Of a stretch of DNA of 64,000 nucleotides, positions 30,936 to 38,457 are shown piece by piece. Under the pieces are notes generated by a model, which was not told the DNA's origin, searched no databases, and saw only the letters and a list, made by a program, of their open reading frames with translations. Where the stretch lies: positions 62,001-126,000 of the forward strand of contig CAKZYA010000057.1 of NCBI GenBank assembly GCA_937883755.1. Direction: 5' to 3'. Source of the DNA: an uncultured Flammeovirgaceae bacterium (GTDB lineage: Bacteria > Bacteroidota > Bacteroidia > Cytophagales > Cyclobacteriaceae). How positions within the stretch are numbered: the first letter of the stretch is position 1; every line of letters begins with the position of its first letter. Both the position numbers and the translations under genes were made by a program.

Positions 30936-33191
30936 ATGATTCCTATTCAACCAGATCAAATTCCTCCCAGCGGATGGCAGGGTTTTAAGCGCCACTGGCG
31001 TACTGATCTGGTAGCCGCCCTCAGCGTTGCACTGGTAGCCCTACCCTTAGGGCTGGGGATTGCGGTGGCAGCAGGCTTCCCACCTATGGCTGGCCTAGTT
31101 TCGGTAATTGTAGGCGGTCTGGTGACTACATTTATCCGGGGAAGCCATGTGGCAATTAATGGTCCTGCCAATGCCTTAATTATTGTAGCATTATCAGCAT
31201 CTGAGAACATGAGCTTACCGGGCGAATCGGGTTTGCCCTACGCAATGGCGGCTTTCGTAGTAGCTGGAGGTATCCAAGTAGTACTGGGGATGCTACGATT
31301 GGGAAAATTAGGTAATTTGGTGCCCAGCTCTACCATTCACGGCATGTTAGCCGCTATTGGCTTTCTCATTATTGGCACGCAGATTCACCACGCCCTAGGG
31401 ATTGCTGGAGCCAGCTTTTTAGACCTACTCACCCAGCCAGAAATATTATTGCAAACCAATCCATTCATCCTAATTGTTACGTTGGCTTGCCTTCTCATTC
31501 TAATCTTTTACGGACAAATTGAGAATCGTGTCATCAAACTGCTCCCTGCCCCTATGTGGGTACTAGTTGCTGCTATTCCCATATTTTACGGCTTCCGATG
31601 GGTTTCTCGTGAGTTTTCTTTAGACGGATGGGAGCTGAATACGGAGCTCTTAGTACAAATTCCATCTGATATTACCCAAAGCCTGATTTTCCCTGACTTT
31701 TCTCGAATAGATGAGCCTGTATTCTGGCTAACCGTATTTGTCGTTACTGTAGTCATGTCATTAGAGTCGCTGGTCATTGCGAGAGCAGTCGATAAACTTG
31801 ATCCTTACAAGCGAAAAACCAATCTCAATAAAGATTTACTGGGTATTGGCGTAGCTACAGTGGTATCCGGGTTTTTAGGCGGACTGCCCGTTACGGCAGT
31901 GATCGCCAGAAGCTCAGTGAATATTACGAATGGAGCAGCTACCAAGTGGTCAAACTTTATGCACGGCTTAATTGTGCTGTTATTTGTCGCAGTGTTTTCA
32001 GGGCTTATCCAGATGGTGCCGTTGGCGGCATTGGCAGCCATCTTATTATTCACTGGCTATAGGCTTACGGCTCCTCGGGTGTTCGAGCGAGCCTACCAAC
32101 AGGGGTGGGAGCAACTAGTCATTCTGGTGGTTACCCTGGTAGCTATTCTGGCTACTGACCTCATGTCGGGGCTACTCATTGGCATTGGGTTTACAATAGT
32201 ATTGCATTTTATTAGAAGCGGTATGCCGTTGCCACTATTCCTCCGTTATATGCGTCGCCCATATATGAAGGTTGTGCAGGAGAAAGAACAGTCGTACCTG
32301 GTGAAAGTGAAGGGCATTATCAACTTTACTAATATCTTGCAGCTCCAGCAGAAAATCAGGAAACTGACTCCCGATGATAACGTGGTTATCGACTTTTCCC
32401 ACACCCGCTTAGTAGACTATACTGTACTAGAATATCTGCACGAGTACGCTGAAAAGTATAATCAGAATGGCGGAGAGCTTCACTTCACTGGGCTGGATGT
32501 ACATAAAACTTCTTCCCACCATCCTTACGCCCTGCACGTGCTGGAGAAGCCTAAGCCTAAGCTCATCCGCCTTACCCGTAGGCAAGTTGAACTAAAGCAA
32601 ATGGCAAATTCTAATAGCTGGGGTTATGACCCAGAGATTGATTGGGAGATTGCTTACCTGAACCGTTTTCTCTTCTTCAAATCGCGACCGGTAGAGTATA
32701 TGAGTAATCAAATTGGTGGAGAATATAAAAAGCTGGGAGTACGATGGAAAATATGTGACGTTTGCCTGAACGAAGCCTTTATCTCTTTCGAGACCTATCG
32801 TATTACGGTGGAAGTGCTATCGCTACCGTTTATGTTACCCGTGTTCTCACTAGAAGAAGAGTCGTTTCTCGACCGTATTTCGGTGATTGCTGCTCAGCAG
32901 GATATTGATTTCAACGAATACCGTAACTTTTCCCGTAAATTCCTGCTACAAGGGCCTGATGAAGAGAGCATCCGGGGATTGTTCACGGCTAAGCTAATTC
33001 ACTTTCTGGAAAAGAGTGATATTTACCATCTGGAGAGCAATGGTAAGGAGCTTTTGATCTTCCGCCACCTACGGCTGGCTAGTCCCCGCGAAATACTGAA
33101 GATGGTAGACTACAGCAAAAAGTTGATAACCAAACTACACCAAACGGTCACTCCCCCTCCGGTCGAACCTACTCCGGACGAGGTATACTAA
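30936..33191 (+). CDS. SulP-family anion transporter with STAS domain and long C-terminal extension
   Basis: A 751-residue SLC26/SulP transporter. The transport domain (about 15-440) shows family features: ALPLGLGIAVAAGFPPMAGL near the start, GPANALIIVA and LLGIGVATVVSGFLGGLPVTAVIARSS split across later helices. A STAS domain covers about 452-535 (VVIDFSHTRLVDYTVLEYL). Residues from about 545 to 751 form an extra soluble domain not present in ordinary SulP proteins, with KICDVCLNEAFISFE and SRKFLLQGPDEESIRGLF. SulP proteins move sulfate, bicarbonate or other anions; without a neighbouring carbonic anhydrase or sulfate gene the substrate cannot be chosen. Confidence 0.88.
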   Translation: MIPIQPDQIPPSGWQGFKRHWRTDLVAALSVALVALPLGLGIAVAAGFPPMAGLVSVIVGGLVTTFIRGSHVAINGPANALIIVALSASENMSLPGESGLPYAMAAFVVAGGIQVVLGMLRLGKLGNLVPSSTIHGMLAAIGFLIIGTQIHHALGIAGASFLDLLTQPEILLQTNPFILIVTLACLLILIFYGQIENRVIKLLPAPMWVLVAAIPIFYGFRWVSREFSLDGWELNTELLVQIPSDITQSLIFPDFSRIDEPVFWLTVFVVTVVMSLESLVIARAVDKLDPYKRKTNLNKDLLGIGVATVVSGFLGGLPVTAVIARSSVNITNGAATKWSNFMHGLIVLLFVAVFSGLIQMVPLAALAAILLFTGYRLTAPRVFERAYQQGWEQLVILVVTLVAILATDLMSGLLIGIGFTIVLHFIRSGMPLPLFLRYMRRPYMKVVQEKEQSYLVKVKGIINFTNILQLQQKIRKLTPDDNVVIDFSHTRLVDYTVLEYLHEYAEKYNQNGGELHFTGLDVHKTSSHHPYALHVLEKPKPKLIRLTRRQVELKQMANSNSWGYDPEIDWEIAYLNRFLFFKSRPVEYMSNQIGGEYKKLGVRWKICDVCLNEAFISFETYRITVEVLSLPFMLPVFSLEEESFLDRISVIAAQQDIDFNEYRNFSRKFLLQGPDEESIRGLFTAKLIHFLEKSDIYHLESNGKELLIFRHLRLASPREILKMVDYSKKLITKLHQTVTPPPVEPTPDEVY

Positions 33192-33391
33192 GCTCAGACA
33201 AGCTGTACCATTCGTTACAATTTTATCTACTTGATAGATGAGTTGTTCTCATTGTAGTCTTGCAACTGCGCTCTAGTAGTTTTAGAATCACTCGAGAAAA
33301 GTAGTATAACTCTAAAATCATACAAAACTTTCTTTAGGTGATTAGCATATAGCGTGGAGTATTTTGATGATATTGAGCAGATAACAAAAAA

Positions 33392-33413
33392 GGAGTAGCT
33401 GAAAAGCTACTCC
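33392..33413 (-). terminator. Terminator of the T9SS cargo gene
   Basis: GGAGTAGC (33392-33399) and GCTACTCC (33406-33413) form a perfect eight-pair stem. On the minus strand the stem is followed by TTTTTTGTT, so it terminates the leftward gene that ends at 33454. Confidence 0.85.
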
Positions 33414-33453
33414 CTTCCTTAGGTTGTTAAGACTGATAGTTCTAAGGTGGTAC

Positions 33454-36400
33454 TTACTTTTTCACCATCACTTTACGGACTACTCGCTCGGTGGGTGAGT
33501 TCATAACTACCATGTATATGCCCGGTTGTTCATTAGTAAAATTGATTTGTTCGGCTAATGATGTAGTAGCTGCCTTTTGGTACACTAACTGACCCATCGG
33601 GTTATAAATTGACAAAGTAAATGCAGTGTTATGATCTACCTCAGCTTGCAATTGGCCACGAACTGGGTTAGGATAGAGCTGTATTTCTGTGGTAAGCGTC
33701 GGTTTGGTTGAAGTATCTTCCGTGCGAGAAGCTGTACGGTAACTATCCGTATCAATTACCTCAAAAGTGAATGAACGTTGGTCGAGTAATTGACCTTCTT
33801 GACTTCGTAGCTCGTAAGAAGTAGCTTCCACAGTGTAAATACCCGGAGCTGGTTGCCAATCTCGGTAATTACCATTACTATCGCCGAAAGCAGCGTAAGG
33901 CGCAGCATTTTCTGTGCGGTTACGAAGTATCCCTAGCTTTTCTTCGCTTACTTTGATATCGACACTACCTACCACTTCAGGGCTAACGTCAACTCGTAAA
34001 TTGAAGTTAACTCCTGGATAATCAGCGTAGTCAATGACCGTTTCCTCGGAAATCTCCAAAATAGCTTCTTCCCGATTAGCATTTATCAGCGTCAAGCCGA
34101 TAATTTGACCAAACTTGGTAATTGTAAATGAAATGGATTGGCTAGTTCCGGGAGTGCCTTCAAAGTTACGTTGCGGGTAAGGAGTGGCTGTAAGTGTGTA
34201 CTGCCCGGGTTGTAGTTCACCGGGGCGATAATCTCCATCATCATCACCAAATAAGGCGTAAGGAGCAGCATTCTGACGAGACGTACGCATCATACCGCCT
34301 GAAAGCTCCAAAATAACACTACCTACTGACATAGGATTAGTAACTGCCTGGATATTGATAGACTGGCCTTCAACTGAACCAAATATTGCGTTAAGATCAA
34401 CCATATCTCCATCCTGAATTGGCTGAAGCACTTCGTCGGTAGTGGGATCAATGAGATTAAATCCGGTTACTGCAATTGGGTTAGAAGTGCTATCATCGTC
34501 GCGTTTCAGAAAGTATATTTTATCTGCCTCAGGGCCATAGGCTATTGCGGTGCTGTCGGATAAACCGATAACATAGTAGTCTCTTAAAATCTGTACCTCT
34601 TCCCATTTACCAAATTCAGGGTTGTTGTACAAGTAGGTTCCTTTACTCTGCGTTTGTACTGCTAACAAATCGCCAGATAGTATTACCTGAGTCCCAAAAT
34701 CATCATTATTTTCTGAGTCGAAGGGCTGTATCACTAAGCTTTGCTGCCAATTATCGTTTTGTTGTTCGTATATGATTACTTCACCCGGTAAAGTAAATTC
34801 AGAAGAACTAACGCCTGAGTTACCAATGGCAACATTACCTGGACTAAGAGCATATCTGGGATCAGCAGAGTCTTCTATTTGGAAGAACCCTTCTAACTGT
34901 TCTGTCTCTACCCACTCCCCTGCTTCGTTTAGTGAGAATAAGTAAGCTGAGTTATTCTGTTTACGGCTGTCTCCTAGCCCCGTTGAATTTCCTACTAGTA
35001 ACTGACCTTCTATAAGCTCTATATCTGACCCAAATAAATCAACTGCCTCTGCATCTGAAGCATATAACTTCTGCACCTCTTGCCACCCTTGGCCTATCCG
35101 CTTGAATACAATAACCAACCCGGCAAGTTGCTCCCCATTCGGTCCATCTTCAAGCCGAAAGGCAGCAAATGCATAGTCTTGACCAATAGCTACTTGAGGG
35201 ACACTATTGTCTGAAATAAGGTTATCTAGTTGTTGGGACAAATTCCACGAACCATTACTGCCTTTCTCATAGATATATACCTTTGCCGTAGCAGCAACAA
35301 TAGCTACATCCTTACTGATTGCCACACGGCTCCCAAAGGATTCACCAGAAATAGGCGCTCGCAAAGTACTGGTGCGAAGCCACTGCTTGTTAGCTTGTTG
35401 TTCAAATATGTAAGCTTCGCGTCCTCCGTTAACGATCGCTTGGTCATCTTTCAGTTGAGCAGTAGTAGCAAAGCGCATAGAGTTTTCTAAGGAAAACGAT
35501 TGACTGGGCACAAATACAGGATCTGACGGATTATCTAACCTTCTTATGAAGTACACCGAATTAGGGTCGGGGCCATAGGCGATAGCTCCTCTACTTGATA
35601 CATCAGCTATGTAGTAGTCTTGTAAGATTTGGATTTCTTCCCATTCACTAAATTTAGTGTTCTCATACAGGTAAGTTCCTTTGTTCTGCGTTTGCACTGC
35701 AAGCAGATTGCGGAACAGTACCACTTCTCTACCAAAATTATCATTATTCTCTGAGTCAGAAGGTCTAATGATGATAGTCTGTTGCCAAGCATTATTCTGC
35801 TGCTCATAAATAATTACTTCTCCGGGCAGGTTAAAACCGCTAGCAAAAGTCCCTGAGTTACCAATAGCAACATTGCCTTGATTAAAGGCATAGGCAGGGT
35901 TAGCAGAATCCTCAAATTGAAAGAACCCTTCAAGCGTCTCTGTTTCTAACCATTCGCCTCTTTCGTTTATCGAGAATAGATAGGCGCCATTCGTTGGTGC
36001 ATTGCTATCAAGGAAAGTGGAATTACCGATCACCAACTGACGCCCTTGTACTATTACAGCACTACCAAAAAACTCGTTTGTCCCTCCATTGGAAGCTCGT
36101 AGTCGTTGTACTTCTTGCCAATCTTGAATTTCTCTCGCAAAGACAATAACTACTCCTACCCGTTGCTCGCCATTAGCACCATCTTCCTGACTTAATCCAG
36201 CAAAAGCATAGTCTTCCGAAATGGCTACGGTAGGGACGGCCTCCTCTTCGCCTAAATCGTCTAATTGGCTAATCAGCGTCCATATCCCACCTCTTTTCTC
36301 ATAAATATAAGCACTGTTACCCCCGGCAATCATAGCTCGGTTAGCAGCTAAGGAAACATTGCTACCAAAAAACTCATCTTCAACAGGTGAGGATACTGTG

Positions 36401-36597
36401 TCTACGGGCACCCATTGTCTGTCGTCTTGCTGTTCAAAAAAGTAAGCTGTGCCTTCACTGGTGGCAATGGCCTGGCGTCCTTCTATTTGCAAGGCACTGA
36501 CTCTTCCATCCAAAGAAAACGCTTGATCGGGCACGTAACGCTGGGCATAGCTTTGGATAGTACAAAAAGCGAGGAAAAATACTAAAAAGAATCTCAT
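33454..36597 (-). CDS. Secreted propeller-repeat protein with T9SS C-terminal sorting domain
   Basis: A 1047-residue secreted protein: a signal peptide ends at SYAQ; then two long homologous halves (about 20-360 and 364-705) of repeated beta motifs such as GVVIVF, AYIYEK and VAIGNSG, suggesting integrin/FG-GAP-like propellers; then two Ig-like repeats (about 706-960) each containing NAAPYA-[LA]-FGD; and finally a type A sorting domain (about 964-1047) with LYPNPVRGQL, LSIYNPMGQLVYQ and a KVMVKK end. The last domain directs export by the T9SS and surface attachment. Ligand and role are unknown, but the form is that of a surface adhesin or glycan-binding protein. Confidence 0.85.
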   Translation of the reverse strand: MRFFLVFFLAFCTIQSYAQRYVPDQAFSLDGRVSALQIEGRQAIATSEGTAYFFEQQDDRQWVPVDTVSSPVEDEFFGSNVSLAANRAMIAGGNSAYIYEKRGGIWTLISQLDDLGEEEAVPTVAISEDYAFAGLSQEDGANGEQRVGVVIVFAREIQDWQEVQRLRASNGGTNEFFGSAVIVQGRQLVIGNSTFLDSNAPTNGAYLFSINERGEWLETETLEGFFQFEDSANPAYAFNQGNVAIGNSGTFASGFNLPGEVIIYEQQNNAWQQTIIIRPSDSENNDNFGREVVLFRNLLAVQTQNKGTYLYENTKFSEWEEIQILQDYYIADVSSRGAIAYGPDPNSVYFIRRLDNPSDPVFVPSQSFSLENSMRFATTAQLKDDQAIVNGGREAYIFEQQANKQWLRTSTLRAPISGESFGSRVAISKDVAIVAATAKVYIYEKGSNGSWNLSQQLDNLISDNSVPQVAIGQDYAFAAFRLEDGPNGEQLAGLVIVFKRIGQGWQEVQKLYASDAEAVDLFGSDIELIEGQLLVGNSTGLGDSRKQNNSAYLFSLNEAGEWVETEQLEGFFQIEDSADPRYALSPGNVAIGNSGVSSSEFTLPGEVIIYEQQNDNWQQSLVIQPFDSENNDDFGTQVILSGDLLAVQTQSKGTYLYNNPEFGKWEEVQILRDYYVIGLSDSTAIAYGPEADKIYFLKRDDDSTSNPIAVTGFNLIDPTTDEVLQPIQDGDMVDLNAIFGSVEGQSINIQAVTNPMSVGSVILELSGGMMRTSRQNAAPYALFGDDDGDYRPGELQPGQYTLTATPYPQRNFEGTPGTSQSISFTITKFGQIIGLTLINANREEAILEISEETVIDYADYPGVNFNLRVDVSPEVVGSVDIKVSEEKLGILRNRTENAAPYAAFGDSNGNYRDWQPAPGIYTVEATSYELRSQEGQLLDQRSFTFEVIDTDSYRTASRTEDTSTKPTLTTEIQLYPNPVRGQLQAEVDHNTAFTLSIYNPMGQLVYQKAATTSLAEQINFTNEQPGIYMVVMNSPTERVVRKVMVKK

Positions 36598-37021
36598 AGT
36601 AATAAAAATTAGTTAAGGTTTATTTAAGTATTACAGCTGTAAAAATTAATTATATTAAAATAAAAAAATAAATAATTATAAAAACAAGAGCTATATATGA
36701 ATTTATTGTTAATATTTCAATTTATTTTTATTAATAGCTTTTATTACACTATTTACATATCTATTGGCCGCAATGACTGGAGCCAAGATCTGATGGGTAA
36801 ATGTGTATTTGGTAATGAGAGCCTTTCGCTCAGAGACTGTTTTTAGTTGATTGAAATGATGCAGAGGATACGGTATTCACTACTGTATGAGTCATCAGCA
36901 TTGAGGTGATGTGACGGTAATACCCCAGTTGATAGAGAGGTTAGTTGACAAATAGCAGATTACTACTATATTCCTTAGTTGAGACAATAGGTTACATAGA
37001 GATAGAACTGTTTGTCTAGTA
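36598..37021. other. Long AT-rich intergenic region upstream of the 41-base array
   Basis: The first 130 bases are very AT rich and probably hold the promoter of the leftward T9SS cargo gene. The remainder has no open reading frame or hairpin that I can support; it leads directly into the tandem array at 37022. Confidence 0.5.
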
Positions 37022-37267
37022 AGATAAGGCAGTTCCTGTGTCGGTAAGCCATTATTTACAATAGACAGCTAGATTTCCACGTCAGCGAGCTATCGTCAAC
37101 GGTCGACGGACAAACTCTCGCGTCAACGGTTCGTCGATTGCAAGCGACAGCTAAATTCCCGTGTCAGCAGCTCGTCGTTTGCGATCGACAGCTAGGTTCC
37201 TGTGTCAGCAGCCCATCGTTTATGATCGACAAGTACACTCCCGTGTCAGCAGCTCGTCGACTAGCAA
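37022..37267. repeat. Array of six degenerate 41-base tandem units
   Basis: Units begin at 37022, 37063, 37104, 37145, 37186 and 37227, each exactly 41 bases. The best-kept pair (units 4 and 5) agrees at about 34 of 41 positions; outer units are more diverged. The conserved core is TTCCYGTGTCAGCAGC, followed by TCGTCG/CATCGT-type bases and ATCGACAGCTA at the next unit's start. At the junction of units 4 and 5, AGCTCGTCG pairs with CGACAGCT across TTTGCGAT (eight pairs, one bulge). At the 3/4 junction, GTCG/CGAC is kept and GGTT pairs with AGCT through wobble pairs. As 41 is not a multiple of three, the array is unlikely to be coding. Confidence 0.85.
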
Positions 37268-37386
37268 CGCAGATCACTCATATTAATAAGTTTCCTACGT
37301 ATGTACCGAATGCTGGTGGACTAGCTTTTATTCTGAATCAGGCTATGCCAAATTTGGAGTATATCGTAAAACTAAACCACAAAAAT

Positions 37387-38118
37387 ATGATTAAGTCCGC
37401 TACTCTTGGTAGATACCGTATTAAGGAATTTATTCAGTTTATCCGCAACTCTTTAATGATTATCGACCAACATGGCTCTGATAAGCTGAAGATTAAATTT
37501 CAGTATAAGAAGCTAAACCAACAGTTCCAGCAGCTAAAACAAACGTACAAGCAAGAAAACCAGAGTGAAATTAGTACTAAGTTATTAGAGTTAGATGCCC
37601 GGCGCGATCAGGCTATTGTTTGTTTACGCATGATCAGTGAAGGATATGCTCGACACCCTCAACCTGCCCTAGCTGCGGCTGGCGAACAAGTGTTGGAGTG
37701 CATTAATAAGTACGGTACTCGGTTATATAGCTTAAACTACAGTGCAGAAACTACCGTATTAAATAATATTGCGCGTGACCTGCAGGCTTCGCCAGACTGT
37801 ACAAAAGCTATTCAGGATATGCATTTGGAGGATGTAGTGAAAGAGATGAATAAGGCCAATCAGGAGTTTGAAAAAGTATTTATTCAGCGGTTGGAAGAAA
37901 CTAGCCGGGAAGAAACTCAAAGTACGCGTGAACTCGTCCAGATCACATCGGAAGCTTACCGTACTCTCACTAAACACATAGAGGCTCACGCTACGCTGAC
38001 CCCCTCGGTAGAATACTTACTGTTTATTGACCATCTGAATGAGAATATTGAGCACTTCAACCAAATTGTAGAACGACGAAAGGCCGACGCTGAGAACGAC
38101 GGGCCGTTGGTAGCCTAA
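37387..38118 (+). CDS. DUF6261-like protein downstream of the tandem array
   Basis: I start this gene at ATG 37387 (MIKSATLGRYRIKEFIQFI). The frame is open upstream to 37138, but that part runs through the 41-base array and reads as low-quality sequence; an ATG at 37345 is also possible. The 243-residue product is almost wholly helical, with no signal peptide or membrane helix. Features such as LLELDARRDQAIVCLRM, INKYGTRLYSLNYSAETTVL, KANQEFEKVFIQRLEE and a C-terminal YLLFIDHLNENIEHFNQIV match my memory of DUF6261, a Bacteroidota family without known function. The array directly upstream may be its leader or target. Confidence 0.72.
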   Translation: MIKSATLGRYRIKEFIQFIRNSLMIIDQHGSDKLKIKFQYKKLNQQFQQLKQTYKQENQSEISTKLLELDARRDQAIVCLRMISEGYARHPQPALAAAGEQVLECINKYGTRLYSLNYSAETTVLNNIARDLQASPDCTKAIQDMHLEDVVKEMNKANQEFEKVFIQRLEETSREETQSTRELVQITSEAYRTLTKHIEAHATLTPSVEYLLFIDHLNENIEHFNQIVERRKADAENDGPLVA

Positions 38119-38186
38119 TTGTCAGATAAAAAGACTTAGGTAAAATACTGTTCGGTAGCATTCGTATAGGATTAATAACATTTACC

Positions 38187-38269
38187 AGTAAATAAGCAAT
38201 AAGACAAAAGCAAGCTACACATGCCCCCGCGCCGCGTCGGCTTTGAAAAAGGGGGCATGGGGATTTAAT
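38187..38269. repeat. G/C-block dispersed palindrome with left flank, copy 3
   Basis: It shares the AGTAAATAAGCANTAAGACA flank and the AAAAAGGGGG...GGGGATTTAAT end with copy 2 at 19470-19540. The left C-run is separated from CTTTGAAAAA by an extra GCGCCGCGTCGG block not seen in copies 1 and 2. It lies after the DUF6261-like gene. Confidence 0.8.
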
Positions 38270-38457
38270 GATCGGACGGTAAGAGCGCATTATTAACTCG
38301 AAATCAGTCTACATCTAACAGAAAGAATATCCTGGAATAGCCACGAATATTATAGTGAGTATCAATATCTTGCTGGATCGCCCCAGGAATTTCATACTCA
38401 TAAGGCGCATATCCGAGATGCCAAAATGAGTCCGAAGATGTACTGTATAGTATTAGA

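Follow-up and report, generated by a model that had tools for sequence, protein, structure and literature searches.

Our data show that, in the loci read here, DUF6261 genes usually have a tandem array of palindromic 41- or 42-bp units upstream, and that the pitch of these arrays is conserved while their letters change. We infer that the array acts as DNA and is bound by the DUF6261 protein, a reading to which we give a probability of roughly 55%. The window, that is the whole 64-kb stretch of DNA analysed, holds one such locus, with the following features:

37032–37277, no strand assigned: tandem array of six palindromic 41-bp units with both ends degenerate (TRF and comparison with the unit consensus)
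37169–37193, no strand assigned: clearest palindrome of the array, with arms AGCTCGTCG (37169–37177) and CGACAGCT (37186–37193) and one unpaired base
37349–37356, + strand: candidate –7 promoter box CAAATTTG, near TAnnTTTG, between array and gene
37387–38118, + strand: DUF6261 (PF19775) gene, 243 aa (Pfam; start by alignment with relatives)
33153–38455, no strand assigned: presence/absence segment with the array, the DUF6261 gene and a 1047-aa ORF (comparison with congener G002)

The six head-to-tail units of exactly 41 bases described in the initial annotation are present by both unit consensus and TRF, with borders at 37032–37072, 37073–37113, 37114–37154, 37155–37195, 37196–37236 and 37237–37277; the first unit had been placed about 10 bases too early, at 37022. 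Identity to the array consensus is 0.76, 0.66, 0.68, 0.93, 0.85 and 0.63 for units 1 to 6, and only 0.29 and 0.20 for the 41 bases flanking the array on its two sides. TRF calls period 41 at 37131–37259 and lists no second array of period 41 or 42 within the window. The hairpin formed by the two listed arms had been noticed before and is there, unpaired base included, as are the G.T wobbles in the outer stem pairs of a neighbouring unit. The entire 41-bp unit repeats and CRISPR-type unique spacers are absent, as had been stated.

The gene that follows, previously called DUF6261-type, matches PF19775 with 116 bits (gathering cut-off 27, E 1.9e–33). Its ATG, placed at 37387 by alignment with relatives, lies 109 bp from the array end, shorter than the 'about 120 bases' given earlier, which was a fair estimate; a mechanical ORF at 37138–38118 that reaches back into the array is taken not to be the DUF6261 gene. 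The candidate promoter box is compared with TAnnTTTG, which we take to be the –7 promoter consensus, and a stretch similar to CAAATTTG is also found 5' of DUF6261 in the relatives L024 and L025. Congener G002 is without the segment 33153–38455, the same two neighbours adjoining each other; the 1047-aa ORF of the segment lies at 33454–36597 on the – strand. Another congener, G001, retains array, DUF6261 and epimerase. The second DUF6261 copy of the window genome (L002, G000:C6:56621-60325) has no clear array, just traces of GTCAGGA words that by eye resemble the congener arrays L021 and L022. An endonuclease-like ORF, presumably DUF559-like, follows the DUF6261 gene of this copy at 2471–2836. 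A sequence starting with GTCATTGCGA and having a CGAAG-rich arm was seen by eye upstream of DUF6261 at about 1280–1372 of L002, with further occurrences in L022 and L028, and resembles an intergenic repeat common in these genomes.

A search for PF19775 gave positive genomes among 5 of 59 relatives and 12 of 395 genomes drawn from the phylum (11 over the cut-off), and when three of the positive genomes were followed up by family, 45 of 148, 6 of 79 and 88 of 123 were positive. From the far larger number of matches, 93 loci (L020–L112) were examined; 17 were left out for short flanks, L039 and L079 among them being also weak matches, which leaves 76. The phylum of the sampled loci is Bacteroidota, as judged from the named records L009, L010 and Prevotella nigrescens. 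An array was called when the best period between 15 and 69 was 41 or 42, with identity of at least 0.55, within 1500 bases 5' of the domain. Such arrays were found at 60 of the 76 full-flank loci upstream of DUF6261 and at none of the 76 downstream, and one locus has an upstream array of another period. After removal of similar proteins the count is 43 of 56. Even at a laxer threshold, 41/42-bp arrays occur in just 4 of 715 background 1.5-kb windows (all other periods: 28 of 715), so the array of the window is not a chance occurrence; one of the four is the C32 array of the window genome, a relative of the window array with 81% identity over 53 bp. The proposed tie between array and gene is thus real, and the suggested look upstream of other DUF6261 genes bears it out. 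Sixteen of the 76 loci, including the second copy of the window genome, have no array at the threshold, and in seven of these the best period is still 41 or 42, with identity 0.47–0.54. Genomes with many copies give the same picture: in G722 17 of 20 DUF6261 copies have a 41/42-bp array and another has one of period 40, and in G690 and G701 the figure is 18 of 20, the remaining two having periods 40 and 43. The 40 loci of these genomes overlap with the 76 in two cases. Named examples are a Flammeovirgaceae MAG (L009, period 41), a Cyclobacteriaceae MAG (L010, period 42) and P. nigrescens (L133, NZ_CP082843.1), where a period-41 array (0.95) lies directly 5' of the homologous part of an annotated DUF6261 gene; a GxxExxY gene is located two genes upstream of the latter. 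Typically 81 bp separate the array from the ATG (median, n = 61; values of 300 or more were excluded).

Association with DUF6261 genes is not the only setting of these arrays. Genome G722 (3.0 Mb) has 61 DUF6261 candidates, 28 of them scored and matched. Twenty evenly spaced stretches of it, 400 kb together, contain 68 merged 41/42-bp arrays, six of them inside an ORF, compared with 14 arrays of all other periods from 20 to 69, where a long array may count twice. Only 11 of the 68 lie within 1.5 kb of a DUF6261 gene, while 57 are farther away. With a stricter threshold and merging, 69 arrays were counted in 768 kb of five genomes with 40–61 DUF6261 candidates (DUF6261-adjacent arrays included, 50 of the 69 from G722), and a single one in 1.1 Mb of eight genomes with 0–6 DUF6261 genes. 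It should be noted that the stretches of G690, G702, G711 and partly G656 come from DUF6261-bearing contigs, which favours finding arrays, while those of G722 do not. The contrast in density holds inside one genus (G676, G703, G686 and G678, which are poor in arrays, versus G690, G702 and G711), the genomes being few and related. Among the sampled genomes, only those with many DUF6261 genes are rich in arrays. The arrays of G722 have no clear preference of orientation or kind of neighbour; the neighbours are mixed, mainly housekeeping genes, with no DUF6261 among the 20 scanned of 33 listed. Related units connect the two settings: of 18 G722 arrays next to DUF6261, 14 are related to some orphan array within the 400-kb sample, and a relative exists for 29 of the 45 orphan arrays (the G722 set after five near DUF6261 genes were dropped), compared with 3 of 1953 shuffled pairs passing the same score. 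One orphan array, upstream of enolase, appears by eye to be flanked by a terminator-like hairpin and a promoter-like site, and is absent at that place in 29 other congener loci, three of which had 337–529 bases of upstream sequence.

What is kept in these arrays is not their sequence. Among 73 arrays, the consensus units bear no evident resemblance except where the proteins are closely related, and by eye no word is common to them. Likeness of units (score above 13.5) is found for 83% of pairs with protein identity over 70%, for 31% at 50–70%, for 6% at 35–50% and for 1–3% at 15–35%; judging from these comparisons, array and protein diverge together. Palindromic structure, on the other hand, is evident throughout: the best centre in the 73 arrays, that of the window (L027) included, has a mean score of 1.88 versus 1.16 ± 0.03 for column-shuffled arrays (>20 s.d.), with arms limited to 19 bases so that mirror pairs of periodic sequence are uncounted. 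The centre exactly half a period off scores 0.71 versus 0.31 ± 0.03 in shuffled arrays and ranks first among the secondary centres in 18 of the 73, where shuffling gives 0.8 ± 0.9 and at most 4 in 60 shuffles; in the other 55 it is not the top secondary, and the clade of the window has the palindromes and not the half-period layout. In helical terms, this spacing of 20.5 or 21 bp makes two turns of the DNA duplex and the full period of 41/42 bp makes four. The 45 orphan arrays of G722 behave alike, with a best-centre score of 1.98 versus 1.28 ± 0.03 shuffled and the half-period centre as top secondary in 8 versus 0.6 (at most 3 in 30 shuffles). The covariation analysis proposed in the initial annotation was made on 63 same-strand pairs of related gene-oriented units from 49 arrays, the pairs not being independent: 38 of 51 double-changed stem pairs stay Watson–Crick versus 29 of 206 (14%) in the control, and 146 stem pairs are changed on one side. 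For units at least 70% identical the figures are 6 of 7 and, in the control, 3 of 42. A mixed-strand set including orphan arrays gives 67 of 97 (control 18%); its 53 G.T and 63 A.C pairs are no strand test, because it combines strands and orphan arrays. The multi-locus comparison therefore agrees with the earlier suggestion that selection acts on spacing and palindromic structure and not on sequence or coding.

Compensated stems are also what one would expect if the array were transcribed as a structured leader RNA, its hairpins regulating DUF6261 expression or being bound by the protein as RNA, and this reading, too, had been put forward. The short distance to the ATG (median 81 bp) agrees with it, as does the scarcity of promoter room at some loci, such as L029 with 24 bp from array to ATG. 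Stems working as gene-strand RNA would tolerate G.U, so wobble counts provide a test. On the gene's strand there are 51 G.T and 76 A.C pairs within arrays (binomial p 0.03, in the direction opposite to RNA), and 38 and 39, respectively, between related arrays in the gene-oriented same-strand set. That G.T is no commoner than A.C speaks for DNA and against sense RNA; the slight A.C excess within arrays would fit either antisense RNA or chance. The half-period spacing of centres follows duplex geometry, and the orphan array at enolase seems, by eye, to be upstream of a promoter-like site. Folded as a single RNA, the window array is slightly better than shuffled sequences (z –1.78, 12 of 200 shuffles equally good), and it has no match in Rfam. 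A TTG/TAnnTTTG promoter scores at least 8 (of 9) before the ATG at 20 of 65 loci and before the array at 10 of 65, which weakly supports a putative promoter between array and gene, a promoter-like site being seen there at a minority of loci. With such fold, Rfam and wobble results the RNA reading was rejected, and we regard a leader RNA as very unlikely. Even less probable, in our opinion, is that 41/42-bp tandem duplications arise at palindromes through host repair or replication, with DUF6261 as no more than a frequent neighbour: one period despite unrelated array sequences and the many kinds of adjoining genes could be accounted for in this way, but not the 60 of 76 loci with an array upstream against none downstream, nor the density of 0–1 array per 100 kb where samples came from genomes having few DUF6261 genes or none, in part of the same genus.

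The main rival, which is compatible with binding, sees array and DUF6261 together as a BIME-like mobile element. The pair would be a selfish unit and orphan arrays its non-autonomous offspring; DUF6261 would help to copy or insert array DNA, binding then being a mobility step and not regulation. Three G722 copies (L121, L122 and L123) argue for such behaviour, as they have a common 1.44-kb unit, 95–97% identical in unrelated flanks, which starts at a palindrome some 50 bp ahead of the called array and ends within 1–2 bases of the DUF6261 stop codon; array and gene can thus duplicate as one unit. The 57 arrays of G722 more than 1.5 kb from a DUF6261 gene, the enolase array missing from congeners and the high density restricted to DUF6261-rich genomes, also within one genus, point the same way. 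A similar correlation is described in PMC2817692, according to which RAYT presence goes with REP abundance and REPs carry compensated changes. Against mobility, no nuclease, transposase or recombinase domain reached a convincing score in the DUF6261 proteins scanned, neither target-site duplication nor terminal inverted repeats were seen by eye at the three copies, and L122 lacks a clean empty site, its right flank being conserved and its left neighbour different. Viral contigs scanned with four queries contained no DUF6261 relatives, and the window protein had no match either, so an origin from phage or plasmid was rejected; a search with L084 returned one plasmid record (P. nigrescens) and two unannotated 'Bacteriophage sp.' scaffolds, one of which gave 0.54 at period 41 in the array test. 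A Y1 transposase as the maker of the arrays was likewise discarded, since Y1_Tnp does not follow array density: there is none in the array-bearing G702, G711, G701 and G656, one each in G722 and G690, seven in the array-poor G000 and five in G363. We consider the mobile-element reading less likely than the preferred one, in which the array is a DNA element bound by DUF6261.

The anatomy recalls REP/BIME–RAYT systems, in which, according to PMC2817692, dispersed, species-specific intergenic palindromes are regularly spaced and adjoin a cognate gene. Like them, the 41/42-bp arrays are dispersed and intergenic, and their abundance goes with the gene in samples of related genomes, uncorrected for phylogeny. 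The protein is different, a Y1 (IS200/IS605-like) transposase in one case and DUF6261 in the other; the DUF6261 arrays, moreover, lie 5' of the gene, have one narrow pitch phylum-wide, and do not share a palindrome sequence or head tag. REP sequences reportedly have a GTAG or CGTC tag, and no conserved word or tag of this type was seen by eye among the unit consensus of the 73 arrays. By protein and tags, therefore, DUF6261 arrays are not members of REP/BIME–RAYT, though their anatomy works like it. BrickBuilt of Porphyromonas gingivalis, said to be a MITE with a 23-bp unit, resembles the arrays in being a minisatellite inside a dispersed element of a Bacteroidota species; we know of no link between it and DUF6261. 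Helix-phased tandem sites bound by the product of an adjacent gene are also familiar from iterons and ParR/ParB site arrays, from which the 41/42-bp arrays differ by their many chromosomal copies in some genomes; among the genes adjoining the window array, moreover, none is recognisable by name as serving replication or partition.

A parallel was found with HU-HIG (PF18291). A 22-bp palindromic array is present within 600 bases upstream in 8 of 28 HU-HIG loci (two of 30 were dropped as short), versus 15 of 1815 background windows, which come from genomes themselves holding HU-HIG genes. The loci are L299, L300, L302, L304, L310, L313, L318 and L328; by eye, the units mostly have a central palindrome of locus-specific sequence, and in some cases (e.g. 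L302, L304) a TAnnTTTG promoter seems to precede the array, which would then separate it from the gene. By its name HU-HIG presumably belongs to the HU superfamily; the tails of these proteins are DUF4469/IG-like or Gly-rich, and DUF4469 (IG-like) is a usual partner of HU-HIG DNA-binding domains. HU-HIG was also considered as the owner of the 41/42-bp arrays and rejected: its copy number does not follow them, which makes it a parallel and not the owner, and just 2 of its 28 loci carry such an array in the 1.5 kb upstream. The two families are alike in their fixed-pitch, sequence-variable palindromic array upstream and in expansions of paralogues, with a DUF4469 tail on one or two DUF6261 proteins as a possible further link; they differ in core protein, in pitch, 22 versus 41/42, and, at some HU-HIG loci, apparently in the place of the array relative to the promoter. 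By analogy, this parallel suggests that pitch-locked palindromic arrays may be a wider design in the phylum. The 22-bp arrays may have been described earlier.

It is more difficult to derive a function from the DUF6261 proteins themselves. Their pI has a median of 5.5, with 18 of 74 above 8 and 6.2 for the window protein; such mostly acidic proteins are unusual for DNA binding, which counts against our reading. The window protein is predicted to be helical by a low-confidence model (pLDDT 41 from a single sequence, 58.5 with three sequences), and a Foldseek search with the DUF6261 model gave no match at E ≤ 0.001, leaving the fold unrecognised. This, too, counts against binding, as do the 16 of 76 loci that have no array at the threshold, the 55 of 73 arrays in which the half-period centre is not the top secondary one, the promoter between array and gene recognisable at just 20 of 65 loci, and the mixed neighbours of the G722 arrays. 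There is no convincing relative among solved structures, matches in NCBIfam, PADLOC and PHROGs are weak or absent, and six DUF6261 proteins scanned against Pfam matched neither Y1_Tnp nor PF18291. DUF6261 is reportedly mentioned in a paper titled on daptomycin resistance in Streptococcus oralis.

The C-terminal part of the protein has a history of its own. In 12 paralogues of G690 the cores have a median identity of 0.28 and the last 110 residues 0.85 (0.35–0.97), the contrast being weaker in seven paralogues of G701 (core 0.27 versus tail 0.47, 0.31–0.96). Tails in this set (L275–L294) are similar despite differing cores, as if homogenised by gene conversion. Between the two species, L282 of G690 and L291 of G701 have array and core 96.8% identical over 1252 bp with tails at 41%, while L282 and L290 have both core (0.91) and tail (0.87) in common, so tails are not strictly species-specific. 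Of the G701 tails, that of L289 matches DUF4469 (PF14734) with 25.7 bits against a cut-off of 22.6, and that of L288 falls just below it, with 22.2; the domain is not listed for L277, L113, L117 or the window protein. Many paralogues of G722 (L113–L132) end in a Pro/Lys/Gly-rich linker and a short end like NPDITLPEE before the stop, possibly a docking peptide.

If the array is indeed the binding site, as the annotation of a 'protein-binding array or repeat element handled by that protein' anticipated (both are supported as candidates, binding being inferred), the following mechanism can be imagined. DUF6261 oligomers would occupy palindromes that recur on the same face of the helix, forming with the array a regular nucleoprotein structure, and each paralogue would be matched to its own palindrome. 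Bound beside the promoter, the protein might control the DUF6261 gene itself. Orphan arrays would be dispersed sites or copies occupied by the same protein, which could there affect nearby promoters or chromosome packing. Protein and array would together behave as fast-evolving satellite DNA with its own binding protein. In its broadest form this would amount to a satellite-DNA system in some Bacteroidota, with dozens of DUF6261 paralogues per genome, each recognising, by structure and pitch and not by a fixed sequence, a palindrome family of its own. Hundreds of orphan arrays would serve as trans sites, and HU-HIG with its 22-bp arrays would be a second, independent instance; we offer this as a tentative proposal, somewhat less probable than binding as such.

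No description of 41/42-bp arrays with DUF6261 was found in the open-access literature; what is kept in this pairing is pitch and symmetry, not sequence. Length conserved without sequence is the reverse of the usual signal of regulatory DNA and therefore escapes motif and homology searches. The link to the array gives DUF6261 its first directly testable function. If true, the proposed system would be a counterpart in bacteria of fast-changing satellite DNAs and the proteins that bind them, and the array–DUF6261 pair may serve as a bacterial model for the co-evolution of the two.
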